Positions 1 to 14,251 of a stretch of DNA of 14,251 bases are shown here, one piece after another. This stretch comes from Entrophospora sp. SA101 (lineage: Eukaryota > Glomeromycota > Glomeromycetes > Entrophosporales > Entrophosporaceae). The position numbers and the translations under genes are program-made. The notes below the pieces were generated by a model. That model was given only the letters and a program-made list of their open reading frames with translations. It had not been told where the DNA came from and did no database searches. Position 1 is the first letter of the stretch. Every line of letters begins with the position of its first letter. The stretch lies in NCBI GenBank assembly GCA_958430865.1, contig CAUDNR010004495.1, positions 1 to 14,251 of the forward strand, in the 5' to 3' direction.

Positions 1-532
1 TCTGAGAGAGCAAAGGTTATCAGAGAGATTGAATTATTTTATTTATTTCCCAATCAACGGAGATGGAGAGATTGGTTCCCAGATATTTTGTAAATATAGT
101 ACAAATTTATATATAAATATAATTTATCTTTAAATTTTCTTGAAAAATAATTTAATTTTTTTGTTTTATTAGATGTTATTCAGTTCCAATTGAAGATATT
201 CAGAAAAAAATTAAAGAAATTGATGATTCAGAACACGAAACGTTTATTTCTGAGAAAGTCAGAGACCTTGTTGAAGCTCCTGAAAAATGCGATTAGGACC
301 AAGTCATAGATAAAATTGAAAAAGTCGAAGAAAATATCAATAATAGGTTTGAATTGTTGAATCAGGATCAAGTCAAAGAGAAAATTGAAGAAATTGAAAA
401 AAGTATGAAGAAATTGTTAAATGGTGGTGTGCGAATCAAATCAAAAAGAAATTTGAATAAATCGAAAAAAAAAACGTGAATAGTAATTTTAAGGAATTAT
501 TAGATGAATTCAAAAAAATCAAAATCGAATAA
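1..532 (+). pseudogene. 3' part of a two-exon Glomeromycotina family gene, broken
   Basis: Exon 1 (1-89) is open from the window edge and ends in an aromatic, basic stretch (YLFPNQRRWRDWFPDI). An 83-nt GT-AG intron (90-172, acceptor TTTTATTAG) follows, and the frame resumes across a phase-2 junction into YSVPIEDIQKKIKEIDD. The rest is lysine/glutamate-rich and probably coiled-coil. The reading is broken by TAG at 294-296, a frame change near the A run at about 397-403 and TAA at 458-460; the last frame ends at 530-532. The motif and intron position resemble a repetitive Rhizophagus protein family as I remember it, but I cannot name a function. The clean intron argues that this was a real gene; the stops argue that it is dead, or that the assembly has errors. 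The 5' part lies outside the window. Confidence 0.6.
90..172 (+). other. Intron of the 5'-edge pseudogene
   Basis: The donor GTAAAT at 90 and the acceptor TTTTATTAG ending at 172 bound 83 nt of AT-rich sequence. Removing it joins two reading frames that encode compatible protein on both sides (phase 2). Reading through instead meets TAA at once (91-93). Confidence 0.65.
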
Positions 533-753
533 TTGTATTCGGATGCGAATTCCGATTTGCTTAATTTTTAATATTAAATAAAGGAAATAGATTTTGTTTT
601 GTTTTTAAAATCAAAAGGTTGTTATTAATGATTGGCCAAACATACTAAAAATATAGTTCTTACCAAAATTGTAATTCTTATCATCTTATCAGATCATCCA
701 ATTTAGCAAAAAGTTTAGAGTTTAGGTATTAGCATCAGTTTCATGAATTTAAA

Positions 754-1145
754 ATGTTATCCACATTAATGGTACTATTTCCTCGCCAGCTTTTGAATGG
801 GAGCCTAATATATATCAGAATAGCCCATAAGGATGATTATCTGAAAATGGCTACACCAATCATCAGAAAATTATACAATTGTCATTTTCTAGCATATCAG
901 ATCTTAGGGATGACTGGTGCATGCATTGGCTGCAAGAAGATGGAACAATAAAGAGTTGAAAGACACCAATTCATTCCTGCTGCAAAACGTGTCAAATTAG
1001 ATACTTTATTGATAAGACCATGCATGGTGGGTGAAAATGAAGTTGTTTATATGGAGGGAGGATGCTATGTCAAAGGAAAAAAGTAAAGTTGGAATTGCCG
1101 CAGAAGTTTTCAAAAACATTAATTACAAACTATTTAAAAACATAA
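754..1145 (+). pseudogene. Frame-broken coding remnant, unrecognised
   Basis: No family is recognised. One frame is open from ATG 754 to TAA 1084-1086 with a single internal TAA (949-951). A second frame looks more protein-like in the first half (FEWEPNIYQNSP near 792-827, then SSISDLRDDWCMHWLQEDG near 885-941) and again after an A run at about 1078, ending at TAA 1143-1145. The first frame looks better between about 950 and 1083 (HQFIPAAKRVKLDTLLIRP, then MVGENEVVYMEGGCYVKG). The simplest reading is one old gene with several small indels that switch frame back and forth. The direction is fairly sure; the function is unknown. It could be a transposon-derived ORF. Confidence 0.35.
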
Positions 1146-1881
1146 AAAGCTAAATCACTAGAATTACGCTTCATTCTTCAAATCTAGATTATTACTGTCT
1201 CACATGACATTCTCAACAATCAAGGAATATTAATATTAAATATATAGACCTCTTTCAACTAAATTTTTGATTCACATAAAATTTTGGTATAACGAATATT
1301 AAATGCAATTTTCTTATGTGTCTGTCCCATAAATTCGTTGAACGAGATTGGACTGTAGAACTTGAACTAAAGATATTGACCACAATTAGGGATGGAAACG
1401 GTGTGATTCAGTTTATAAACCATCAGTTTGACAAACGAACTGAACGTTTATAATTTTGTAATCACAATAAGTTTATTTTATTTATTAATACAAAAATAAA
1501 TAATTTATATAAACAAAAGAATCGGAATGCACGTTCCAATTTATACCATATTAATATGTAGCTTAGATTTTGGCAAAAAAAGATTTTTTTTTGGTTTTAT
1601 TTAATAATTATGATTAATTTATAATCGAAACACAAGGTTATGAGAGTTAGTCTATCAAACGATTGATCTTTCTATCAGACTTAGGTTCAATTGTGACGCT
1701 TGCTTTTGAATGAATAGTCTATCGATTTGAAAAATAAATACAGTGGCTTCATATTTTTCTCTATGGTGTATCCTTGTGATATTTCGTGCAATTATTTTAC
1801 TTGGTCTCGTTTCTTTATTTTTATCCATTGACACTTATTATTGTTACGTAGGATTCTAATTCTGACCAATTGACTCCCACA
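1146..1881. other. AT-rich intergenic stretch
   Basis: No convincing coding sequence on either strand. The only hint of structure is at about 1387, where AGGGATGGAAACGG resembles the G-rich start of some hAT-type terminal repeats. I found no matching opposite end, so no element is called. Several short A/T runs are present. Confidence 0.4.
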
Positions 1882-2070
1882 TCACCTATCTCTATTTTGA
1901 AGATTTAAGAGTGCTTCCATTAATTTGTCTTCTTCACGGTTCATATTACAACGAACTGGTCCCTTCTTCTCCTTTATTACCAGGCATCTTCCTTTTTTCT
2001 GAAATACAGATTTGTAATTCATAAACCTTTCCAATAATTGTTCCATTTTCATATGGATATTTATTGACAT
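1882..2070 (-). CDS. Small hypothetical ORF or exon
   Basis: A 62-residue minus-strand ORF starts at ATG 2070. It is rich in charged residues (MKMEQLLERFMNYKSVFQKK, then NREEDKLMEALLNLQNRDR) and could form a helix. No domain is recognised. Its 3' end, GATAGGTGATG, contains a possible splice donor, so it may be an internal exon of a lost gene rather than a complete protein. No partner exon was found. Chance remains a real possibility at this length. Confidence 0.2.
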   Translation of the reverse strand: MSINIHMKMEQLLERFMNYKSVFQKKGRCLVIKEKKGPVRCNMNREEDKLMEALLNLQNRDR

Positions 2071-2632
2071 TGATTGTTATCTCCTCCTGTCTACATTGAG
2101 ATTTATCACTGCGAGCGGTTTTCCAAACTTAATTCTCAATTCTTATGACTGTCTAGTGTAATTGGTATTATTTTCCTTTTGATAGTTGTATTAAAATACA
2201 TGGCAGTAACCCGAATCATTTCAGCATTAAGGTGATGAGAAAGTTCAAGCTTAGCCCGGATACACAGCATGTTATAGTTGCTCGAAGGTAACGTCTGCAT
2301 TTAGTTTTGGTAAATCAGTAACAATAAAGTATGGTGATGTTAATGCAGATATTAATGGTTTTTTTTATCTGTTTTTATTTCGATATCTTTTTTTCTTCTA
2401 TCAAGGTTATTAACTCGGAATGGAATTGATTGGTGGCATGTTTGATGTTGATTCAGTCTGTTGATCAGTTCCAATCTTGTCTTTGGAATAGAATTCAGCT
2501 GATGAAACCTTAATTCTTATTCTTTTTTCCGCTTAGTTCATTAGGCAAATGGTTATATTGGATGCCATATCTGCTAGCGTTGAATGAGTTTCTCTGATGA
2601 TATTATTGTTGTTATTATTACTACTATTATCA
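2071..2632. other. Intergenic stretch with simple-sequence DNA
   Basis: No gene seen. It contains T-rich blocks and an imperfect ATT/GTT trinucleotide tract (about 2600-2635) directly beside the left target duplication of the following hAT-type element. Confidence 0.4.
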
Positions 2633-2640
2633 TTATGGTT
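2633..2640. repeat. Left 8-bp target-site duplication
   Basis: TTATGGTT directly precedes the left terminal repeat at 2641 and is repeated exactly at 3290-3297 after the right terminal repeat. Eight base pairs is the standard target duplication length of hAT transposons. Confidence 0.75.
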
Positions 2641-3289
2641 CGAGTTTGGATGACGAAATCTCTCTTTTTTTTTGTCGCACGACTAAAATAAATGGGACAA
2701 AATAGGAATTTTACATTTTGAGGAATTTGAGGAATTTGACGAAAATGATGAAAATGACGAAATCAATTATTTTAAATTATTTACATTTTTGTTCAAGGAG
2801 CAAATTAAAAAAATAAAATTCATGATGTCAAATTCTAATTCACCAATTACTTCTCATATAACGCGAATTTACAAATATTAAATTTAGATAATATATCTGA
2901 AAGTTCATTTAACAATAATCAAGAATTAGCTCCAGGACGTCCTGTATCTGGTGTATGAAAAAAGTAAAAGGACATTACTCAGCATCTCGCAAAAAATTCT
3001 CCAAAAATCTGGAACGCATTTTAAACCCAAGGTACATTTAGCTAATGAATGTCCTGGATGTCATTATTCTATTTTTCGTTTTTATTTGGATGAAATTAAC
3101 AATCAACAAAACAATGAAATTCTCAAGCTCTTTTGTCAAACTTTTATGAAGGCACTGTTCTAACTGACCAAAGAAAATATTCAATCGATTTTGACTTTTG
3201 CCCTCATCACTTTTGTCACATTTCGTCACCATGTGCCCCGTTTGACGAAATATTTTTTAACTCTAAAATATTTTCGTCGCCCAACCTTG
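2641..3289 (+). mobile_element. Short hAT-type DNA transposon remnant, 649 bp
   Basis: The right end read inward begins CAAGGTTGGGCGACGAAAA (complement of 3271-3289), a typical hAT start (CARGGTTGGG). The left end CGAGTTTGGATGACGAAAT (2641-2659) matches it at 14 of 19 positions without gaps. Exact 8-bp duplications flank both ends. Inside each end are GACGAAA-type repeats in opposite orientation (left about 2717-2765, right about 3195-3250), as expected for subterminal transposase-binding repeats. The interior holds a decayed BED zinc-finger reading frame at 2815-3130 but no RNase-H-like catalytic core. It is therefore an internally deleted, non-autonomous copy that relied on a full-length relative. 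The left terminus has drifted more than the right, so the insertion is old. Confidence 0.72.
2815..3130 (+). pseudogene. Decayed BED zinc-finger segment of hAT transposase
   Basis: The order of recognisable pieces matches the N-terminus of fungal hAT transposases: a Ser/Asn-rich leader (MSNSNSPITSH, about 2825), then GRPVSGV (about 2936), VKGHYSAS (about 2963), then KPKVHLANECPGC (about 3026) and FRFYLDEINNQQN. BED fingers bind DNA through a Cys/Cys/His/Cys zinc site. Here the first cysteine pair appears lost (the stretch after KGHYSAS reads RKKFSK), while the HLANEC part survives. At least one frame change separates the two halves, and several stops interrupt the leader. It lies wholly inside the 2641-3289 element in the same orientation as the expected 5' exon. 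It cannot encode a working DNA-binding domain. Confidence 0.6.
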
Positions 3290-3297
3290 TTATGGTT
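3290..3297. repeat. Right 8-bp target-site duplication
   Basis: TTATGGTT directly follows the right hAT-type terminus and is identical to 2633-2640. Confidence 0.75.
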
Positions 3298-3849
3298 CGG
3301 CGGTCTTGGATTGGACATTTTACTATTATTAGTGTTGTGACTTGCCATTATCATTTGGTAATATAAGCATTGTACGTTCTTTTTAGAAAACTTAAAAAAA
3401 TGTTTTTAGCCAAAATTATAATAAAATTGTAAACAATCTTATTCACAAAATGATAAAAAAAATATATACGTGTCTTTGAATATTGTACTATTATTATAGT
3501 TTTTGAGACATTTTGCACATGGCTGTTATATTATTATTGTGACTACCGTAACTATTAATGCTGTTGTTTGTAAATCTATGATCGGGCTTATTGCTATTAT
3601 AATTATTATTACTATCGTTGTCCTGAAGGAGACAACTTCTATTGGAATAGCTGGTTGATCACATCGATAAAAACAAGCCCCCACGCATCCTCTAGTTGGT
3701 TTGAATTTATCATCCAGAAAGTTGGTTATCAAAGTAATTTATCCCTATGGTCATTTTGGGCTACATTTCCAGGTGTCATTAATTTGATTTGCAAAATAAG
3801 CATACAAAGCTCCTTCTTTAAAAATATGCCATTTCAAAGGTTTCAGCTA
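3298..3849. other. Intergenic stretch between two transposable elements
   Basis: No supportable gene. Short open frames occur on both strands at about 3526-3882. The minus-strand pieces (for example KFKPTRGCVGACFY) faintly recall the mid-region of hAT transposases but cannot be assembled into a continuous match. ATT/ATTATT tracts occur at about 3530-3620. Confidence 0.35.
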
Positions 3850-4719
3850 GAGATGCGCCACGCACAGTGTGTGCGCGCATAGTTCTCATGTTGTATTACA
3901 TAGCATGCATGTACAAGTTTCTCCATATTAATACATAATGGTCAATTATAAAATAGTGTAAATATATATTGTTTTAGTTGTTAAGACTTTTTCCTTACTT
4001 AAATATTGAGGTTTTTTTCTTAATATACATATAGTTATATTTTTAATTCAATAAGTATAACATTCTTGAAATTATGATATTATTTTTAATGTCAATTATT
4101 AATAAATATAAGTATTTTTGTAGACATTAATTAATAAATATTTCTAGTTAAAGAATATATATATAAATATGCTATTTGATTTTTTAAGGGCCAACATTAT
4201 TGCGCATTTGTGACAATTCTCTGTGTGCTATTACTATTACTATCTCTTAAACGGTCAAAGTATTCTTTAATGGTAACGCGAAATGATTTTTTGATCACGA
4301 TCTTGCATTCTTATTGGCCAATTTAACGATCTGCAAAGTAAAAATAGTCAATCGACCAACTTTTAAAGAAGCCGTTTTTCTGTAATTCAGCTATCACACA
4401 CCACTTCCAATTAGAGGGCTTTCATAAGCGTCTTACTCGCCGAAAGAATAATTGGAGGTAATGGGTGGCGGGATTTTACGAAAACCACAAGGACAACAAC
4501 CGAATTTTTATTCACATATCAAACAGCTGAATCCCAAAGATCATTTTCGTATTAGGAAGTAATACCTTCAGAAAAAGTTTTTTTATAATAGAAAAAAATT
4601 TTCGGTTATCAATAGTCGAAAAACCGTTTAAGGGATAATACTAATACACTATATGCATTATGTGCACTATGCGCACAGTGCACGAAAAAAAATCAGGGTT
4701 ACTATGAATGGCACATCTC
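3850..4719. mobile_element. Inverted-repeat DNA element without transposase (MITE-like), about 870 bp
   Basis: The left end GAGATGCGCCA (3850-3860) and the right end TGGCACATCTC (4709-4719) form an 11-bp terminal inverted repeat with one mismatch, and TA flanks each side (3848-3849, 4720-4721). Subterminal GTGTGCGCGCATAG on the left and CTATGCGCACAGTGCACG on the right are also inverted relatives. A longer imperfect inverted pair sits inside (4201-4256 with 4620-4680). No transposase frame is seen. A TA duplication suggests Tc1/mariner-type mobilisation. If the flanking TA belongs to the repeat, TAGAGATG would suit some hAT ends, but no 8-bp duplication is present. The AT-rich block at about 3885-4195 has no counterpart in the right arm and may be a later insertion. 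Confidence 0.5.
4201..4680. repeat. Imperfect long inverted repeat (foldback)
   Basis: The left arm at 4201-4256 (TGCGCATTTGTG through CTCTTAAACGGT) matches the complement of about 4620-4680 (TGCGCATAGTGC through CCCTTAAACGG) with small gaps, centred near 4438. Weaker pairing continues inward (AATGGTAACGCGAAATG against the complement of the 4595-4615 region). An inner stem, ACTTCCAATTA (4404-4414) with TAATTGGAGGT (4451-4461), shares nearly the same centre. This fits an eroded long-terminal-repeat MITE that can fold into a hairpin. Confidence 0.5.
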
Positions 4720-4835
4720 TAATTATAGTTCTCTGTGACGAGGTTTGACGAATTTAACATATATATATTTCATTTTATCAACCAATAAAAATTATCAAAA
4801 ATCACATGATATGTTCGTACAATGTACTAAAAAAT

Positions 4836-4883
4836 TTTTAAGCTCATACGTACGTGTACGATACGTGTACGAATCCCAACCCT
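4836..4883. repeat. Isolated hAT-like terminus with internal direct repeat
   Basis: The complement of the sequence ending at 4883 reads CAGGGTTGGGATTCG, which matches the start of many hAT terminal repeats. The adjacent sequence holds a direct repeat of ACGTGTACGA (about 4850-4871), like subterminal binding sites. No matching left end with an 8-bp duplication was found. CAGGGTT at 4694 is too short to accept and lacks a duplication. It is probably a truncated end of an old element. Confidence 0.35.
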
Positions 4884-5125
4884 GAGTTAGAAGTTATGCT
4901 ATAATTGTTGATGACTCTAAATGATCGGCACCATACCACTTGAGAAAATTCCATCAAAGTGTCCACTTCATGTTCAAAGTTATATCATTCAGTTAATTTT
5001 ATTTTTTTTATTTGTTTCCACTTTTTAATTCTATATGGCTTGTTATTGATTAGCTAATTATAACAATGAGGACAATTATAGAATATGTTAAAACCTATAT
5101 TTTAATGCATATTTCTTTTGAAACA

Positions 5126-5398
5126 TCAAGGAATTCTTAGATTTACCATTCTCATCCAGTGTTGGAAATTTCCTGTTCCAGTAGGAAATTTTGTTCCAGT
5201 GTTCCAGTTCCAGCAATTTTCCTCATCGCTATCAATATTACAATCATCACCTTGATTTAGTAAATTGATTGCTTCTGCTAAGCTACAAAAGGCATTAATA
5301 TTATGATAAATTCTTTGAAAATTATTGTTATCTAAAGATTTTTTAAAAGTCGTGATCTTTATAAAACCTTCCGAAAAGAATGATGTTTCCAAAGTCAA
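5126..5398 (-). CDS. Hypothetical ORF, possible remnant
   Basis: A 90-codon minus-strand frame is open from 5398, where the first codon is TTG, so no ATG start is available; TAA lies six codons upstream. The middle reads like protein (FCSLAEAINLLNQGDDCN, then DSDEEN). The C-terminal third comes from a GGAAC/TTCC repeat (about 5150-5215), giving WNWNTGTKFPTGTGN, which may be repeat-derived rather than coding. No domain is recognised. It could be an internal exon or part of a transposon. No splice partners were found. Confidence 0.22.
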   Translation of the reverse strand: MTLETSFFSEGFIKITTFKKSLDNNNFQRIYHNINAFCSLAEAINLLNQGDDCNIDSDEENCWNWNTGTKFPTGTGNFQHWMRMVNLRIP

Positions 5399-5929
5399 AA
5401 GATGTAGGGTTCTTTAAGAAGCCATTACTTGATAACAAAAAAAGTTGTTGACACATAAAAAAATTGCATTAAAAGAGCGGAAATAAGAGAATTTATCTAC
5501 TTAGAAGCATAGAGAATGTTTAATTACAATATTTTTGCCTACAAAAGTAGCATTTGCCGCGGTCACGTTTACTTCGTCGACAATTATTTCATCGACAAAC
5601 ACTTCACTGACAGTTAGTTTAACATGAGTTGATATTATCACTGACTATTTTAGTGATTATAATAATTGATAATAATTATAGTGTGGATCAGAAAAATTGA
5701 CATTTCGTTTGAATCAAAACTCAGGAGATATTTATTTTTCTGATGATAATTCTTTTCAAGATGCATGAAATTCGGCCATCCAAATTTTCTTTTTATCTAA
5801 ATTCCCTGATGCTTCTGAAATCATGATTCCTAGACTCAATCAGGATTAACAACTAGACAAATTATATTAATAATTATAATCAATGCGTATGTTACGCTAA
5901 AATCATATGAACTGTGATTGTCGATGAAC
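5399..5929. other. Intergenic stretch with repeat motif and traces of coding
   Basis: At about 5567-5611 a spaced motif recurs three times (CTTCGTCGAC, TTTCATCGAC, CTTCACTGAC), like subterminal repeats of a DNA element, but no end could be defined. A short plus-strand frame at about 5725-5848 (GDIYFSDDNSF, then SKFPDASEIMIPRLNQD) looks coding-like but carries a stop and has no context. It may be an upstream part of the remnant that follows. Confidence 0.3.
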
Positions 5930-6330
5930 TGTATGTCGATCATTATATTAGAATCAAGTGAGAGATAACCCGTGTTATCACGACGATTCTAAAAGAGTGA
6001 AAAAATCTAAAAGGTAAAAGTGTATAATGGAAGCCGTGTTAATTTTTTGTTTGTGTTTAATTTAACAGCGATGCATTTAATCATTTATAAATTGCGACAA
6101 TTTTTAGCGGTAAAAGGAATTGAAAAAAAAGATCTTGAACAGATAGAGACATTTGGACTACTTGTATATAGTAAGAATTAAATATTATAACGTGATTTGA
6201 TTGTACTTTTCTTAATCTTTATATCTTTTTTATTTAGAAAAGAATTTTTTTCTATATTCAACACATTGGGTTGACGGATATATTTAGTTGATAAAATATA
6301 ATTGAATCGATGTTGGAATTTAAGGTAAAA
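5930..6330 (+). pseudogene. Gene remnant with two recognisable introns, unrecognised family
   Basis: Three coding blocks are joined by plausible GT-AG introns. Block 1 (about 5938-6013) includes NQVRDNPCYHDDSKRVKKSK after an in-frame TAG. A 55-nt intron (6014-6068) then leads to AFNHL. After a one-base frame change near 6080 comes YKLRQFLAVKGIEKKDLEQI (about 6087-6146), then TFGLLVY. A 67-nt intron (6171-6237, GTAAGA to TTATTTAG) joins TAT-A to AA to give KKNFFLYSTHWVDG. A further one-base loss near 6280 would restore IYLVDKI. The splice junctions preserve coding sense, so this was once a real spliced gene. The WVDG-containing C-terminus is reminiscent of Rhizophagus multigene families, but I cannot identify it. 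It is broken by at least two indels and a stop. Confidence 0.45.
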
Positions 6331-6716
6331 TTTATTTTGCAAAAATCGCGTCTTTTATTTTAACTTTTTTAATGCATATCTTTCTATTTGTATGTAGTCT
6401 CGCGTTCTTCATTGTATGAGCATGCAAATTTCCTTATGCAAAATAAACCAGTAACATATGACCAAAGAAAAAAAAAAGAAGTTCTCATTTTGGCATTTCC
6501 GAAAAATAATTGGTTAAAATATAACTTGGTATTTTAGTTTAACAATAATGTGAGGAATTATTTGATCATGTATAACATTATTTAGATTTAAAAACCGAAT
6601 GGGTAAAAAAAAATTTTTAAAATTAGAATTTATATATGTACGCGTGAAAATTATGTTAACTTCAAAACTGTTTTATTAAAACGATGTGTTTGCAGATAAT
6701 TTTATGTAATCAATCA
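6331..6716. other. AT-rich intergenic stretch
   Basis: Homopolymer-rich (A runs at about 6469-6480 and 6605-6613). No coding sequence, RNA gene or paired repeat seen. Confidence 0.4.
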
Positions 6717-7035
6717 CTTTTTTCGGTTTTGTTACATGAAAACTTCGCAAAGATTCAGGAGATGACAAAATATAGTACACAAGCCTGAACAATTGTATTG
6801 TTAAAAAAAATCAACAGTTACTAGTTTAGTGATGCCTCGATAACAAAACAGTGTGCTGAAAAACCTTCTTGAACGGTCATTCATCTATTATTATTGATAA
6901 TTTTTCATAATGATTTTCAAAATACATGAGGCAAGTAAACTTGACTCAATGTAGATGCTTGTGGTATAGAGCCTCCTTCGCACAAGTGTTTTTTAAAGAA
7001 TGGTAATAGTTTATCTCTTTTTCCGGTGTTTGCAA
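6717..7035 (-). pseudogene. hAT transposase remnant (catalytic-region start)
   Basis: Read on the minus strand, four pieces appear in order but in shifting frames: KLLPFFKKHLCEGGSIPQAS then LSQVYLPHVF (7012-6920), FENHYEKLSIIIDE (about 6924-6880), RRFFSTLFCYRGITKLVTVD (about 6865-6805), and NNTIVQACVLYFVIS (about 6810-6765) followed by a stop and more open frame. This order matches fungal hAT transposases of the CGG-binding-protein type: a pre-catalytic helix, then the first catalytic Asp in the IDE region of the RNase-H-like fold, then the FxYRGxTKLVxVxF strand. Only about 100 codons survive, with at least three frame changes. No terminal repeats were located around it. It is unrelated in position and strand to the 2641-3289 element. 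Confidence 0.5.
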
Positions 7036-7588
7036 TTTAAATCTTTTTTTGAACTATTTGAACTTTAAACTGTTAATTGATTAAATAACAAACTTTGCCG
7101 ATCAGTTATTTAACAGCTATTTAACCAATCTGAAAATTATTTAACTAACAAAGTTCATTACGCATCTGGAAAACAATATCAAATATCGTTATTATAATTT
7201 CATCACTTGAGATTTATTTTTTGATCAAATCAATGTTAGTAATAATGATATTATTATTACAGCAAGAGGTTACATCGAGATCGACTCTGACTTAGGAACT
7301 GAAATATGACGAAGTTATTGCGGCAATTCAAAGAGGCACCGAAGAAAAGGAAGAAGATTTGGGCCACCAATGTCTATAAAAATGCTTTAAAAAGCATTCA
7401 AAATCTATATAATTACTTGCAACACATAATAATGATATACAATCAAACAGTTTTTGTTTCAGGATTAAAAGATTTAAAATAATTCTTTAATATAAACTAG
7501 TATGGATATTATTTAGATAAAGAATAGTGTCTTTTTTTCTATCTATTTTACTAAATAATTATTTTTTCAATCATTATATTAATTTTAC
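7036..7588. other. Intergenic stretch, possible isolated exon
   Basis: Mostly AT-rich. A plus-strand piece at about 7262-7380, preceded by an acceptor-like TATTATTACAG, reads ELKYDEVIAAIQRGTEEKEE before a stop, but TAG lies upstream in the same frame and no partner exon was found. A small hairpin (ATGCTTTAAAAAGCAT, about 7382-7397) follows. Nothing here is firm. Confidence 0.3.
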
Positions 7589-7616
7589 AAATAAATAAAT
7601 AAATAAATAAATAAAT
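7589..7616. repeat. (AAAT)7 microsatellite
   Basis: Seven uninterrupted AAAT units. It lies about 220 bp beyond the stop codon of the modular gene on its 3' side. Confidence 0.9.
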
Positions 7617-7643
7617 TTAAACGTCTTTTTTTGTTTACATATT

Positions 7644-7691
7644 TCGATAAGTCAGATCATCATGCCAAGCCACTTGTGTCCGACTTATCGA
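7644..7691. repeat. Perfect 10-bp inverted repeat, 28-nt loop
   Basis: TCGATAAGTC (7644-7653) pairs exactly with GACTTATCGA (7682-7691). It sits about 145 bp beyond the stop codon of the modular gene. It may be a transposon-end fragment or an RNA hairpin in the 3' flank; the sequence does not decide. Confidence 0.5.
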
Positions 7692-7835
7692 GTTTACCCA
7701 ACCCAAAAAACTATTATTATTAAAATTTATCTGAATCTAATTAAATACATATTAATTAATTAATAAATAATAAAATACAAAATATAAATGTACGAATTAG
7801 AGATAAACAAATAAAGTTTTAAAATGAATGAATAA

Positions 7836-10461
7836 TTATGTTGCCACTGATAATTCCATTGGCAATTCCATTTCAAATTGATTATCAATATCCTCTATTA
7901 AAGATAAGCATTGTTAATAATTGTGATAAATATTACTATTTAGCAAATTATTTAAATTATTATTACCTGGTGGTTCATCGCCTTCATAATTAATGATATT
8001 ATTATTTCTGTTATCATTACTGCTACTATTATTTGTATTAGATAATGTACCTGAGACTCTAATATCAACTTGATTACTTGAATTTGTTTGATTACTTTGA
8101 ACCTCTGTAATATAATCTATAATATGTAAAAACATTATTTCTTGATTAAAATGAAAATGATAACTAAATTAATTTACTTACCAGAGTTTATTGTTATTGT
8201 CTCCTCCTCTTCATTATTATAATAAACATTGTCTGGTAATTCAATTTCAAATTGATTATCAATATCCTCTAAATAAATATCACAAAGAAAAAATTCATGA
8301 GGTTATTTTTATTTTCATAAATAATTATAATTAAAGTATCATCATGAATTAATGGTTTCAGTTACCTGGAGGTTTATCATCATCATCATCTTTTTTTTCG
8401 TCATCATTACTTTTGATTTCAAGAGGTAATTCCATGTCAAATTGATTATCAATATCCTCTACACAAACACAAGCACATATATAGAAGACAATACATTGTT
8501 ATGTTATTGAAATAAATAATATGATTGCTATTATTACTACTACTAGTAGTATATTATCTACCAACCTGGAGGTTTATCATCCTCATCAACTTGTTCTTCA
8601 ATATCATGATTAGTTGGTAATTCTATTGAAAATTGATTATCAATATCCTCTAATTATGCCCCAAAAAAAAATACATTATAATTATTATAATTAAAAAAAA
8701 AACCATAAAATCAATTTCTTTTTAAATAAATAATTGGTCTATTTTACCTGGTGGTTCATCATCATTAATATCAGGTAGTTCCATTACAAATTGATTGTCA
8801 ATATCCTCTGGAATAACGTATATATCATTTTAAATTAATAAATTGAATAATTACATCAACCAATTTAACTTCAATATATAAATCAATATCGTCAACTCAC
8901 CTGGTGGTTCTTCATCATTAATATCATCATTAGTATTATCAGGTAATTTCATTTCAAATTGATTGTCAATATCCTCTAGAATATCATTTTTAATTAATAA
9001 ATTGAATAACTACATCAACTAATTTAACTTCAATATATCATCAACTCACCTGCTGGCTCATCATTGCTAATATCATCATTGATATTGTCAGGTAATTTCA
9101 TTTCAAATTGACCGTCAATATCTTCTAAAAATAACAAGTACATACATATACGCACACATGTATATTATTTTTAATTAATAATTGAATAATTACATCAACC
9201 AATTTAACTTCAATATATTATCAACTCACCTGGTGGTTCATCATTGATATCATCAGGTAATTTCATTTCAAATTGACCGTCAATATCCTCTAAAAATAAC
9301 AAATATATACATGCACACACACACACATATATCATTTTTTAATTAATAAATTGAATAATTACATCAACTAATTTAACTTCAATACATTAATCAATATCAT
9401 CAACTCACCTGGTGGTTCTTCATCGATCTTATCAGGTAATTCCATTCCAAATTGACCATCAATATCCTCTAAAAATAACAAGTATATACATGCACATACA
9501 CACATATATCATTTTTAATTAATAAATTGAATAATTACATCAACTAATTTAACTTCAATACATTAATCAATATCGTCAACTCACCTGGTGGTTCTTCATC
9601 GATCTTATCAGGTAATTCCATTCCAAATTGACCGTCAATATCCTCTAATATACGCATTTATGATTATTTGTATTGTAAGTATATAACTTTACTATATCAA
9701 TTTAATCTATTTACCTGGTGGTTCTTCTTCTTCTTCTCCATTAGGTTTATCAGCATCTAATTTATTAAAAAAATATTTATTAAAATTACTACCAAACTGA
9801 TTTACATAGATAATCTTGTATCAACCTGTTGGCTTATCATAATCACCGTCATCATCATCACTTTCAATTTTATGAGGTAATTCCATTTCAAACTGATGAT
9901 CAGGATCTTCTAAATTACATACAAAAAAAAGAAACATTTTATTTGAAAATTGTTATTATTATATATATTCCTTCGTGATTCAATAATCTACTCACCTGGT
10001 GGCTCCTCATCCTCTTCTCTTTCATGAGGTAATTCAATTTCAAATTGATTATCAGGATCCTCTAATTACATCCAAACAAATACTAACATTTTTAATAAAT
10101 AAATAAATTTTATTAAACAAAAGAAATACTTTAGACTAATTAATTTTCTACCTAGTGGTTCTTCATTAACATCCTCAGGATTTGGATCGCACGATTTGCA
10201 TCGTGCCTTTGATGTATTATATCTGGCACACTTTGTACAAATACCATGCTCTTGTTTTCTTTCATCATTGTAAGTATCTTTATCGTCCGTTACTGCCGTT
10301 ATTGTCATTGGTGGATTTATCGATGGGTTATTATTATCATTATTATAATCATTTTTTAATTCTTGTGATGATGACAACGAGTCTTTGGAAGGTTGTCGTT
10401 TAATGACATCATCAATATAGTCTTCTTTGTCTTCTTTCCCGCAACAGCAAATATTACCCAT
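7836..10461 (-). CDS. Modular acidic repeat protein with lipid-anchor N-terminus and zinc-type motif (15 exons)
   Basis: Exons by eye: 10461-10152, 10061-9996, 9909-9826, 9756-9715, 9644-9585, 9468-9409, 9289-9230, 9124-9050, 8975-8901, 8807-8748, 8649-8566, 8458-8366, 8268-8182, 8104-7967, 7894-7836. They sum to 1353 nt: 450 residues plus TAA. All introns are GT-AG, 69-119 nt and phase 1. Residues 1-8 are MGNICCCG: Gly2 fits N-myristoylation and Cys5-7 palmitoylation, implying a membrane-attached cytosolic protein. Cys75, Cys78, Cys88 and Cys91 (CTKC-x9-CKSC) form a zinc-type motif like one I remember beside protein kinases in Rhizophagus; no kinase domain is present. From residue 104 the protein is an acidic repeat chain: twelve copies of E-D-[IP]-D-x-Q-F-x-[MI]-[EK]-L-P, usually ending E-P-P, one per exon. 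Exons 4 and 14 lack the motif. The start context is good (G at -3 and +4). Function is unknown; a membrane-tethered multivalent scaffold is my inference. Confidence 0.82.
8748..9644 (-). repeat. Tandem array of homologous exon-plus-intron units
   Basis: Exons 5-10 and introns 5-9 of the modular gene are copies of one unit of about 150-180 bp. The exons are 60-75 nt. The introns share a long common core that on the plus strand runs from TTTTTAATTAATAAATTGAA through ATTTAACTTCAAT to CAACTCAC at the donor. Exons 5 and 6 (9585-9644 and 9409-9468) differ at one base of 60, and introns 5 and 6 are also nearly identical. Neighbouring units differ more, so the array grew by unequal exchange, most recently at units 5/6. 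Every unit is phase 1 at both ends, so gain or loss of a unit keeps the frame. Confidence 0.85.
9314..9327. repeat. (CA)7 microsatellite inside intron 6
   Basis: An uninterrupted CA tract in intron 6. Shorter, interrupted versions occur at the same place in introns 5 and 7 (around 9490-9503 and 9150-9160), which supports common descent of those introns. Confidence 0.8.
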
Positions 10462-10640
10462 CGCTAATCTATGCTAATAAATAATTTGATAATATGTGTA
10501 TGTATGCTATTTAAACATTTTTTTTTTTAGTATGTAACCATAGATGTTGTGTGAAATGAAATTTCCTAAATTATTCTTTATGCATTTATGGAGGGCAACC
10601 AGTTAATGCGAGGTGTCACTATGCATATACATGTATATGT
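10462..10640 (-). promoter_or_regulatory. Probable 5' flank of the modular gene
   Basis: No coding sequence. A T-run lies at 10518-10529 (A-run on the gene strand). A TATA-like CTATTTAAAC (10508-10517) is about 50 bp upstream of the ATG. A perfect 16-bp palindrome, CATATACATGTATATG (10624-10639), lies about 165 bp upstream and could bind a dimeric regulator. There is no direct evidence for any of these roles. Confidence 0.25.
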
Positions 10641-11695
10641 CCCTCAGCAATGGAACGTAAACCAAACATTGAAACTTCCCACACGATCTCTATTTCCATC
10701 GAGTTTACAATTATTTTTTATTGCCTCAGATGGTTTGATGTAAATTTGGCAACTTTTTGATCTTTGAAAAATAAACGGATTCGAAATTTATAATGTGAGG
10801 TGTTAAGAAGAACCTTCCAAGTTGTTTTTGAAAGAAGTTGGGAATGCACCATGTGCTTGTTTGACAATTCCCATATAAATTTTTATCCAAACTTTTTTTC
10901 CAATTATGCTTCTTTTTCCTTTTCTCATTATTGGATTTTTTATTTATTTATATATTTTCTTCTTGCCAACTTCTTGAATCCTCATTGTAAAGTTTTTGTT
11001 TGTTGCTTTATAGCATCTTGTGGTTTAGCAAGTCTTGAAACAAGATCGGGTTAGGTTCCAAAAACTTTCTATCGTGATTACTATTTAACTTATCATTTTT
11101 TTGAAACAATTCATTCCAAAAAATTAGTTTTACAAAGTCTAATTATTAACTAGTTCCATATCCAATTTAATAAGCATTTAATATTTATTTAAACTAGTTA
11201 TTATTTAAAAAATAGGGTTGTTTTATATGCGGGGCGCCGTAATGGACACCTAACCATATATATAATTTGGTTATTGTTATTATTATGGGTTAATAATAGT
11301 GGGTTAAAAAATTCACTTAATTTTCACTGTCGTAACATTATATTTTAAATAAAATAAACAGTTAAATATTAACAATAGATCTGTATAATGAATGATAAAT
11401 CTTTTTCCTTAAATTGTCAAGGTTTCTTTGATTATTATCGTGTTACACTCCTTAAAAGGATTTTATGCTCGGATTTTTATATACCCAAAAAATTAATTTG
11501 TAACTTGATGATGTCATAATTATAATATAATAAAAAATCCGATAAAAATTTTTTTTAAAAAGATGACCAAAAACCACATTTATTTTTAGGTAAAATATAG
11601 TATTGGGACTTTTGAGAAAAATTATATGATCACGATTTTTCTCTAATTTTTTTAATGTAAATTTCTTTTGATTCAGGTGATAAGTTTAAATTTGT
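10641..11695. other. Intergenic region
   Basis: No supportable gene. A plus-strand frame at 10800-11054 is open for 84 codons from a GTG and is largely hydrophobic (T-rich DNA read as Phe/Leu), so it is probably fortuitous; its first part (RRTFQVVFERSWECTMCLF) is the only protein-like piece. A GC-rich patch, GCGGGGCGCCGTAATGG (11230-11246), stands out in AT-rich DNA and may mark a transposon end. TAATGYGAGGTGT occurs twice (about 10605 and 10790). Near 11468 and 11535, CGGATTTTTAT and an inverted counterpart (AAAAATCCG) could pair. Confidence 0.35.
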
Positions 11696-11987
11696 CTATT
11701 CAATGATATATCTTTTATCATCTTCGCTACCTTTTAAATCATTTTCAATATCTACAGTTGCTTGAATGCATGTATTAGAAACTTGTTCTTCCGATAGATC
11801 AGTTCCATTCTTTTTTATAAGAAACGGCATCCAACCAAAACCATCCAACTTCATCTGGACAAACTACACACTCATTTGATATGTTTTGTGGAGAAACTGC
11901 TTGACGTTTTCGTAATATATACAAGTTGCACGATATCAAAATTTTATACCCAAACCCATACCCCAAAAATTTAAAAATTTTACCCAA
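11696..11987 (-). pseudogene. 3' end of an unrecognised gene, one frameshift
   Basis: Two minus-strand frames join at a six-A run (about 11808-11814). The upstream frame carries KRQAVSPQNISNECVVCPDE and GWFWLDAVSYKK. The downstream frame continues NGTDLSEEQVSNTCIQATVD and ENDLKGSEDDKRYIIE to TAG at 11696-11698. Both halves look like real protein, so a one-base indel in the A run is the simplest explanation. The part before about residue 28 of the upstream frame comes from the GGG-rich repeat (11949-12002) and is probably not coding; an exon boundary may lie near 11910. No domain is recognised; a CxxC pair (CVVC) is present. Confidence 0.4.
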
Positions 11988-12002
11988 ACCCGGAATATAC
12001 CC
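11949..12002 (-). repeat. GGG-run repeat with quadruplex potential
   Basis: Six runs of three or four G lie on the minus strand within 54 nt, in GGGTTTGGGTA-like units, interrupted by a self-complementary AAAATTTTTAAATTTTT spacer. This is unusual in such AT-rich DNA. It is not a telomeric TTAGGG array. It may be the end of a repetitive element. Confidence 0.5.
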
Positions 12003-12311
12003 ATATTAATATCTTCTTTTATTATTATCCAAAAAAATATTATCTAAATAAATTTGTAATTAAGAATTATATTGAGAGCACTATGTAAATCAAGAATACT
12101 ATCGACTGTTACTGGATTTTATTGTCATGCTTTCTTCATCTAAAGTAACCGTGGTAAGCAAAAATGAATATTTAATGGAATAAATTTTTTTTATAAACCA
12201 ATTATTTACAAAGTATTTATGTTTGAGAGCGTGGATTGCAAAATAAGATTTTTAGGGATGATTGTTCCCTAAACTTTGATTTTAACACTATTTATCCATG
12301 TAAAATATTAA
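12003..12311. other. AT-rich intergenic stretch
   Basis: No gene, paired repeat or RNA feature seen. An acceptor-like TATTTAG (12319-12325) lies just downstream, inside the open frame that follows. Confidence 0.4.
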
Positions 12312-12783
12312 ATTTCGATATTTAGTGTCTTTTATCAAAGTAAAACTTATTATCGCCGAGGTGCTACTATTTTAACACCTGAGCAAATCGAAGAAATTAG
12401 GAATTCCAAAAATAGGGTTCCTAAATATGTGCTAGTAAGGAATTTCCATATTAATGAAAATCGTGTTGAATGGAAATCACAGCTTAGCAGATACAGTAGA
12501 TCACTTTCCTGATTCACCTCATTTACCAAACATTGGCATGGATGAAAACGTTATGCAACTGAACTCTATTGTTACCTCAGATAAGCAGACAAAAAAGACT
12601 AGCAGAAAAAAGAAGGACAATTCTAGTGCGGAATTATCTAAAGGTGGAGATCTATCGGAATCGAAAATCGTACATCATTCTATTTTAAATAATCAGTCTA
12701 CCTCATCAGTGCCAGAAAATGAAGTGCAATCCAGAATGTCACATTTGCGAAAATATGCTAAAGAGCTTCAAGCTGAATCCTGA
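12312..12783 (+). pseudogene. Fragment of a repetitive-family gene, frame-shifted
   Basis: The first frame (from about 12312, no stop upstream to 12309) reads YYRRGATILTPEQIEEIRNS then KNRVPKYVLVRNFHINENRV (about 12348-12467), a basic, helical segment that recalls DNA-binding helix-turn-helix regions. It then runs into a stop. A second frame, with an ATG at 12454, is open to TGA 12781-12783 and carries ADTVDHFPDSPHLPNIGMDE, a basic KQTKKTSRKKKD stretch, a Ser-rich low-complexity part and a C-terminal MSHLRKYAKELQAES. A deletion or frameshift near 12455-12475 separates the halves. The style matches Rhizophagus repeated families, but no function can be given. Its end overlaps the end of the convergent pseudogene on the other strand by 16 nt. 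Confidence 0.45.
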
Positions 12784-14251
12784 ATTTGAATCAATTCCTT
12801 TTCAAGATATTCAGCATAATCTAGAACTCTAAGAAATTCATCTTTGAGGTTTTGTCGTGTGTCCCAAACCTTAGAATGGAACTCTAAGATTTCAGTATCT
12901 GGAATGAAATTAAGATTAATCACGCTTTTTTTTTTAACTCTGTATCTGTCTCTTCAGAAATAGATGGAATTGCATTAACATGTTGTACCTCAAGCTTATT
13001 TTCGACTTATGCATAGTAACTGGAATGTAAAAATCTTTCCCGTTGCAATTGATCTTCAGTAAATTCTTTTCCCCGAGTATTTGATATTTGTGGTGTGGTA
13101 GAGGAAAGGATTGCTCAATAACAGCATAGGCTTATCATATCCAATAACTACAAAATCTAAATAAAATATACAATCTGGGGCTAGGGTTAACGGTACATTA
13201 TAAACCATTCCAATAGATTTTGTCAGAACAGTGGTTGCTCTCTTGAAATAACGAGTAGTACTTTTATCGATTTTTAAACCCAAGCGTTCAGCAATGTCTC
13301 TAGACATAAGTAAAGTATTTGAGCCAGGATCGACTGTAATTGCCAAAAGTACTAGATGTTTGATTTTACCCCGAACAGTTGGAATATCTATCACATCCTT
13401 ATCCTGGATAAAGTTAATTTCCATACCTTCGACAACTTCTTCATCTTCAGTCTCGCTTTTTTGGAGTGTATCATTTGCGGTACTAAATTTCTGAAAATTT
13501 CGTAAGATTTTACTTATAGCCTCCTCTAATAAAGTGGAATTTACAAGCTCACTTTGAATTATTTCACGCATTCGTCTCTCTAGTAAAGTCGAAGTGGGAT
13601 TTTGCGATACTTGAAGAGGGGTTCAATTCTCCTTACCCTCTGAAAAATATGCATCTTTCTTGTCTTTGGATCGGGATTTTTTATCAGATGTTTTCTTAAT
13701 GAGTACTCTAGGTTGATCTATTTTTTTTTAATTCTGGATACATTAACATATGATTCTTCACTAAGTGCATTATCATCAAATTCACCATCATCTTCTTGAT
13801 CGGAAATAGTAGATTCATTAGGGGTTTCTTCCGTATCACAGCTATTATCAAATTGATCTTGTGAGAACCCATCGGCGAAATTCACACGACCAGTTCTTTT
13901 CCTAGAATTAGAAATCATATTCTTAATTACAGGACAACTACGATAAGTGTGGCCAAGCTTTTTACAAATTTTGCATTTACGTTGGATTGGTCTAGTATTT
14001 ACTCTAGGGGTTCTGACCACGTTTATTGATGGACTCGGTGAGTTTGACAATCCCTCAGGTTGATCTAATTTATTTGCAAGGTTGGTAATTGCGTAATCAA
14101 TTTCCATTGGTTCGAATACTCTGTTGTCTTCAACCTCAAGGCCCATTTCGGCATAATTTTTTAGATCTTCATAGTACTTACGGTGCAGATCATCTATAAT
14201 CATTAATTGCTTATAGTAACAATTGGTCAACTTCAAAATACTAAAACAAAA
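12768..14251 (-). pseudogene. Gag zinc-knuckle/retropepsin-like gene remnant, no reverse transcriptase, partial
   Basis: Open from the window edge (14251). The first frame ends at TAG 13718 and holds a CCHC zinc knuckle (CKICKKLGHTYRSC, 13934-13975; C-x2-C-x4-H-x4-C), as in retroelement Gag proteins that bind nucleic acid, then an acidic tail. A nine-A run (13721-13729) shifts the frame. The next frame has TGA at 13623-13625, then continues through 13571-13056 with a retropepsin-like core: DPGS (13320-13331) at the catalytic Asp site, AERLGL after it, and MLLLSNPFL near the end, where the usual ILLG glycine is Ser. A shift near 13075, TAA at 13007-13009, and a ten-A run (12926-12935) follow; the last frame ends at TGA 12768-12770. 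No reverse transcriptase, RNase H, integrase or LTR is seen. A 57-nt in-frame GTAAGG...CTAG segment could alternatively be an intron that removes the TGA. Confidence 0.6.

Follow-up and report, generated by a model that had tools for sequence, protein, structure and literature searches.

How does a fungal gene come to carry the same short motif a dozen times, each time on an exon of its own, and what might such a protein do? The question is raised by a gene on the minus strand of contig CAUDNR010004495.1 of the glomeromycete Entrophospora sp. SA101 (assembly GCA_958430865.1), of which we analysed positions 1 to 14,251 (the window). A sequence-only reading of this DNA had described a membrane-anchor-type protein built from interchangeable mini-exons. 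On balance, we favour the view that the gene encodes a lipid-anchor-type, kinase-less relative of a kinase family, with a cassette-built docking tail at the membrane.

A chain of phase-1 mini-exons

Reading and splicing the DNA upheld the coordinates and strand of the earlier description: the gene runs on the minus strand from an ATG at 10461 to a TAA that ends at 7836. The spliced frame comprises 15 exons and 1,365 nucleotides (nt) including the stop, and encodes 454 amino acids; the 1,353 coding nt given previously fall 12 nt short. All 14 introns (65–119 nt) are of the GT-AG type and in phase 1, and the 13 internal exons, 2 to 14, are all multiples of three in length (66, 84, 42, 60, 60, 60, 75, 75, 60, 84, 93, 87 and 150 nt). 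As all internal boundaries are in phase 1, an exon and its intron can be gained or lost as a cassette with the frame kept. A stop in the read-through frame was present in each of the 14 introns, and the full frame of the gene therefore depends on splicing. The motif ED[IP]DxQFx[MI][EK]LP is found in 12 of the 15 exons (2, 3, 5–13 and 15), the number counted before, and is missing from exons 1, 4 and 14. The observation of a mini-exon gene is confirmed. The window gene is a predicted spliced gene with a full open frame, and one of a small family that consists of the window locus and a sister gene in four copies on another contig, C1650. Its features are as follows.

10462..10514, minus strand: 5′ flank directly upstream of the start codon, part of it conserved with the C1650 sister gene (TAAATAGCATA block and TTATTTATTA-CATAGATTAGC block)
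10152..10461, minus strand: exon 1, 310 nt; MGNICCC start (myristoylation-type, three Cys), Asn/Ser-rich linker and four-Cys module CTKCARYNTSKARCKSC; donor less certain
9996..10061, minus strand: exon 2, motif copy 1, EDPDNQFEIELP
9826..9909, minus strand: exon 3, motif copy 2, EDPDHQFEMELP
9715..9756, minus strand: exon 4, motif-free spacer, DADKPNGEEEEEPP; best cross-locus matches are C1650 exons 6 and 4
9585..9644, minus strand: exon 5, motif copy 3
9409..9468, minus strand: exon 6, motif copy 4
9230..9289, minus strand: exon 7, motif copy 5
9050..9124, minus strand: exon 8, motif copy 6
8901..8975, minus strand: exon 9, motif copy 7
8748..8807, minus strand: exon 10, motif copy 8
8566..8649, minus strand: exon 11, motif copy 9
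8366..8458, minus strand: exon 12, motif copy 10, EIKSND type, with 88% identity to the exon type amplified at C1650
8182..8268, minus strand: exon 13, motif copy 11
7967..8116, minus strand: exon 14, 150 nt, Asn/Ser-rich, motif-free
7836..7894, minus strand: exon 15, motif copy 12 and stop; splicing least certain

The model was tested independently by a dynamic-programming gene search that allowed introns of any phase, was run at three intron penalties and took its codon usage from 4,980 codons of kinase-family reading frames elsewhere in the same genome. This search returned phase-1 introns only at all three penalties and recovered exons 2–13 (12 of the 15) to the base at every penalty; splicing thus bears out the 15 exons and 14 phase-1 introns of the sequence-only reading, and the phase-free search agrees on the phase and on these 12 exons. 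At both ends of the gene, the search and the model disagreed. Every setting placed the donor of exon 1 15 nt downstream of its position in the model, an additional intron was cut out of exon 1 in two settings, and exon 14 was extended into intron 14 to a stop ending ...NSNIYHNY, which left exon 15 unused. The model is therefore least certain at the first donor and at the 3′ end. Read-through from exon 14 (7967–8116) into intron 14 (7895–7966) would give an alternative C terminus with its own stop, and an alternative last exon is possible.

A conserved motif in an acidic tail

The repeat tail has a net charge of approximately −113 over 351 residues and an isoelectric point at the floor of the program (4.05), and on this composition we take it to be disordered. 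Selection was gauged from 21 motif copies of 12 codons each, 12 from the window gene and nine from the C1650 copy L009. Seven of the 12 core residues (E1, D2, D4, Q6, F7, L11 and P12) were unchanged in all 21 copies, and the ratio of nonsynonymous to synonymous substitution rates (dN/dS) in the motif was 0.29 for the window gene, 0.09 for C1650 and 0.20 overall. By these measures the motif looks to be under purifying selection. A short, strictly kept motif, one per exon and with free spacers in between, has the look of a multivalent linear-motif strip. A chance origin of the array was ruled out by the 12-fold repetition, by the dN/dS below 1 and by a sister gene of like structure.

Sister copies differ by two cassettes

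We searched the whole genome (101 Mb, 2,123 contigs) at the DNA level and ran two protein searches, the counts from which are lower bounds. The repeat was found at one other place, contig C1650, in at least four copies (L009, L010, L011 and L012). A DNA match on contig C1255 (L013) contained no motif copy in any frame, as judged by one regular expression, and was taken as chance. The C1650 gene starts with MGNTLSCC, has the same four-Cys head and has phase-1 introns in models from a search that admitted only phase 1 and had the window gene as its training set. The predicted proteins of L009, L010 and L011, all in frame, are 421, 357 and 357 amino acids long. L010 and L011 are 100% identical across 6,501 compared bases, and L009 and L010 are 99.7% identical over 1,970 bases outside the array and 98.96% identical over an alignment of 5,076 columns that extends into part of the cassette array. 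Each L010 exon and intron has an identical counterpart in L009, and two exon-plus-intron cassettes of L009 are absent from L010: exons 9–10 with introns 9–10 or, equivalently, introns 9–10 with exons 10–11, as exons 9 and 11 are identical. The contrast between L009 and L010 amounts to two cassettes cleanly gained or lost, in either direction. With the 13 symmetric internal exons of the window gene, it sustains the earlier claim of a frame-neutral exon chain. The four near-identical C1650 copies all lie on a single contig of 166 kb, where L012 is inverted and cut short, an arrangement that may stem from recent segmental duplication or from an assembly effect.

Comparison of the two loci gives some view of how the arrays grew. 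The best cross-locus matches are collinear: window exon 3 matches C1650 exon 3, window exon 4 matches C1650 exons 6 and 4, window exon 10 (and, less closely, the short exons 5–9) matches C1650 exon 7, and window exon 12 (and 11) matches C1650 exons 9–12. No clear partner was seen for exons 2, 13 and 15 of the window gene or for exon 2 of the C1650 gene. As the order of exon types is kept between the loci, their ancestor seems to have had several types in that order. Later amplification seems to have involved the short type in the window (exons 5–10) and, at C1650, the EIKSND type (exons 9–13) and a motif-plus-spacer pair (3+4 and 5+6). Window exons 5 and 6 agree at 59 of 60 bases and the introns that follow them at 110 of 116 aligned bases, which indicates that exon and intron were copied together. 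In older cassette pairs, exons stay far more alike than introns: the figures are 56 of 60 exon bases versus 46 of 89 aligned intron bases for the neighbours 9 and 10, and 45 of 60 versus 50 of 94 for exons 10 and 11.

A kinase-family head behind a lipid-anchor-type start

A genome search with exon 1 yielded 150 scored matches from 468 candidates, namely the window gene, the four C1650 copies and 145 others, all aligned around the four cysteines and with expect (E) values at kinase loci down to 8e-8. We read 25 of the other loci (L019–L043). The four-Cys module was present in all 25, typically as DEYSxERxEEYGECPTCNRYNTxxxWCQSCDPKLLTEGWTSGN, and was followed in frame by a kinase glycine loop (GxGGFA type) in 24, the remaining locus being seen only in part. 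In three of the loci (L020, L021 and L038), the module frame contains a stop or is closely followed by one. Across 36 aligned heads, including those of the window and C1650, eight columns are invariant (C, C, R, Y, N, T, C and C); the window head is 37–51% identical to 34 kinase heads and 56% identical to the C1650 head. Two kinase N-lobe pieces matched PF07714 at E values of 0.0006 and 0.003, below the cut-off because the pieces are partial. As a control, the C-lobe frame of one kinase locus retrieved 819 proteins, with PF07714 in all 120 that were listed; among these 120, Rhizophagus irregularis was the only named organism, at 46% identity, and other entries reached up to 85%. On this homology, the four-Cys head is not peculiar to the repeat protein but also heads a large family of kinases encoded in the same genome, a result that the sequence-only reading had not foreseen. 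In the available text of one study, approximately 28% of the functionally annotated gene models found only in R. irregularis were predicted to encode kinase domains (PMC3886924).

The element common to the window head and the kinase family is an N-terminal DxYSxER..GxCxxCxRYNTSxxxCxSC module. At the positions where most of the kinases read xxWCQSC, both repeat genes have SKxxCKSC, a shared feature that supports a common origin of these two genes. The spliced protein contains no kinase domain, and the repeat tail occupies its place; as the head recurs before a kinase N-lobe elsewhere, the repeat gene looks like a kinase-less derivative. A Pfam scan of the 454-residue protein returned only DUF5783 at an E value of 2.9, below the cut-off, and no kinase match, and a scan of exon 1 gave no match above the cut-off. 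A fold search of the PDB with a structure model of the head found none at an E value of 0.001. A profile comparison of the head with PDB sequences gave RBM22 at an E value of 0.034, too weak to rely on, in an alignment that ends at the third Cys; a RanBP2-like zinc finger, which we had expected, was unsupported by the structure model and the fold search.

The kinase-family loci show duplications of their own. At L037, L030, L028, L026 and L040 (contigs C1380, C130, C746 and C1931), we observed tandem units of approximately 600 bp in which the start of a C-lobe (IYGLTQDP..EYMEDGSLQ) is joined, with the frame kept, to another four-Cys head and N-lobe; the donor after EFLNE is apparently in phase 0. 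These units look like chains of kinase half-modules from the same kind of exon-unit duplication.

The pattern for N-myristoylation is MG-x-x-x-[STAGCN]. Matched as a regular expression, it fits both MGNICCCG in the window gene and MGNTLSCC in C1650, and the cysteines adjacent to both starts fit palmitoylation; the earlier suggestion of a myristoyl/palmitoyl-type N terminus is in keeping with the starts of both genes. The kinase-family starts that we read are mostly MEN, MET or MES, whereas the repeat genes have a Gly-2 start and a Cys cluster. One kinase, at L032 (minus strand, unit ~2069–2200), starts with MGNTLNKN, and a Gly-2 start has thus also arisen on a kinase. No hydrophobic signal-peptide stretch was seen in the N termini MGNICCCGKEDKED (window) and MGNTLSCCSGKG (C1650) by reading, with no predictor run.

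Relatives and comparable systems

When compared with 5.8 billion proteins, the spliced protein gave no match at an E value of 0.001 and an alignment of both repeat genes gave nothing at an E value of 1, in searches that reach only relatives sharing exact five-residue words and that miss many-exon genes more easily than one-exon kinase fragments. No relatives from outside the same genome were found in this set, although kinase relatives are present there. The sequence-only reading knew of no description of such a family, and we likewise found none in Pfam-A or the 5.8-billion protein set; as far as the data reach, the repeat protein is apparently a new family. In open-licence literature on mini-exons and exon duplication in arbuscular mycorrhizal fungi, mostly titles and abstracts, we found no account of a kinase-headed mini-exon gene. 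A gene architecture of many small symmetric exons is already known; the two-cassette copy difference and the kinase-type head are new here.

The PEVK exons of titin are small and frame-neutral and encode an elastic or disordered stretch; the likeness to the window gene is one of gene architecture only, and the protein is unrelated. In schistosome micro-exon genes, very small symmetric exons make up the greater part of the coding region (PMC4350168), of 3–81 bp with introns of up to 5 kbp (PMC10526429). The window gene shares the symmetry of its small exons, all 13 internal ones being multiples of three with phase-1 boundaries. In the available text, the schistosome genes are apparently restricted to platyhelminths and secreted, whereas the window gene has internal exons of 42–150 nt and introns of 65–119 nt. 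Membership of that family was rejected: R. irregularis is the only organism named among the 120 kinase-family relatives listed, and no signal peptide was seen by reading. Aphid bicycle genes, putative gall effectors, also have many small internal exons of a single phase, nearly all of them phase 2 according to the part of the report available (PMC9168663), and that text describes no repeated motif per exon; the window introns are all in phase 1, and we rejected membership of this family too.

The SP7-like effectors of arbuscular mycorrhizal fungi are described, in the portion of the source at hand, as having 6–11 hydrophilic repeats that are imperfect and end in a conserved signature, the first of them preceded by a conserved intron; binding of SP7 to SR45 needed at least three repeats in yeast two-hybrid assays, two were enough in bimolecular fluorescence complementation, and binding, in the authors' suggestion, grows stronger as repeats are added (PMC11333574). 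As far as described, they share with the window gene imperfect hydrophilic repeats in variable number and near-identical paralogues; window intron 1 directly precedes the first repeat, a possible parallel to the SP7 intron, which is given there without position or phase. The window gene differs in having no visible signal peptide and one exon per repeat. As no signal peptide was seen by reading, membership of the SP7 family was rejected. The effect of SP7 repeat number may serve as an analogy for the repeat tail, not as a sign of relationship.

A proposed membrane-anchored docking tail and its alternatives

The reading that we favour, a kinase-less membrane protein with a cassette-built docking tail, would work as follows. 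The head, a Gly-2 myristoylation-type start with neighbouring cysteines and then a C-x2-C...C-x2-C module that may bind metal, would place the protein at the membrane and in the kinase network. In the place of the kinase, a very acidic tail with 7–12 full copies of EDxDxQFxxxLP, one per exon, would act as a multivalent docking strip, the strength of which scales with cassette number. Tail length and the number of motif sites would change by gain or loss of whole exon-plus-intron cassettes, presumably via recombination between near-identical cassettes. More tentatively, as something possible rather than probable, we propose that a fungal lineage removed the kinase from a kinase gene and put in its place a docking tail of adjustable length, each exon of which supplies one binding site; membrane valency would then be set by the number of cassettes in the genome, possibly also by splicing, and would differ between near-identical copies in one genome.

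Several observations weigh against this docking-tail reading. All splice junctions are predicted from sequence alone, and the C1650 model is not independent on phase because the window gene served to train its search, which admitted phase 1 alone. At C1650, the inverted copy L012 loses similarity inside the gene, exon 8 has a seemingly damaged 5′ end and a boundary that is uncertain, and, given the close likeness of the copies, cassette differences could be created or masked by an assembly fault. The near-invariant Trp of the kinase heads is absent from both repeat genes, in which the function of the head may thus be lost or altered. The structure model of the head has a mean predicted local distance difference test (pLDDT) score of 72 and no PDB match better than an E value of 2.8; with no confident fold, ‘zinc finger’ denotes a cysteine pattern only. 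Gene conversion blurs dN/dS between repeats of one gene, and a rougher test, in which variable columns were counted at each codon position, favoured selection for C1650 (P = 0.005) and for all copies (P = 0.02) but not for the window alone (P = 0.14).

Some of these points would fit a tail that is almost neutral, an acidic filler drifting in length with minisatellite-like cassettes, in which selection keeps only the frame and the splice sites. This is unlikely, in our view, without being negligible. It would explain the recent near-perfect cassette duplications at both loci and the amplification of different exon types in each gene, and it would accommodate the truncation of L012, what we read downstream of the C1650 stop as damaged remains of the former terminal motif exon, and the lack of significance of the codon-position count in the window alone. 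It does not sit well with the seven core residues that are invariant in all 21 copies at dN/dS values of 0.09–0.29, nor with older neighbouring cassettes in which exons are far more alike than introns. The same damage, at L012 and in exon 8 and the old last exon of C1650, together with a head common to kinases, could also point to a decaying kinase paralogue with exons that no longer yield a working protein. We consider this very improbable: the window gene, with its 14 GT-AG introns, has an open frame of 454 codons, three copies of the sister gene remain in frame, the motif shows selection, and the spliced protein has no kinase match.

A further explanation is that the gene encodes a splice-variable, host-facing protein, as do schistosome micro-exon genes, aphid bicycle genes or SP7-type effectors, with exon skipping giving many isoforms. 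Symmetry in all 13 internal exons fits this view, as do, in the text available, the repeats, the pre-repeat intron and the suggested repeat-number-dependent SR45 binding of SP7-like effectors (PMC11333574). The N termini MGNICCCGKEDKED and MGNTLSCCSGKG show no hydrophobic signal peptide to the eye, the head belongs to a kinase family, and bicycle exons, as reported in the accessible part of the source, are in phase 2 (PMC9168663). We regard a host-facing role as improbable, less so than decay and more so than a neutral tail, and retain the kinase-less docking protein as our reading of the locus.

Neighbourhood and significance

Elsewhere in the window, at 13056–14236 on the minus strand, two frames resemble pieces of a retrotransposon polyprotein by reading only, one with a zinc-knuckle-like CKICKKLGHTYRSC stretch and one protease-like.

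The near-identical sister copies, which differ only by whole exon-plus-intron cassettes within the modelled gene, offer a natural test case for the growth of repeat proteins. The step in which frame-neutral gain or loss of exons would change valency is open here to direct observation across strains and nuclei. If exon skipping proves true, this would be a fungal mini-exon gene system comparable to the schistosome micro-exon genes. The gene also suggests one way in which kinase-less scaffolds may arise from the very large families of kinases in these fungi.
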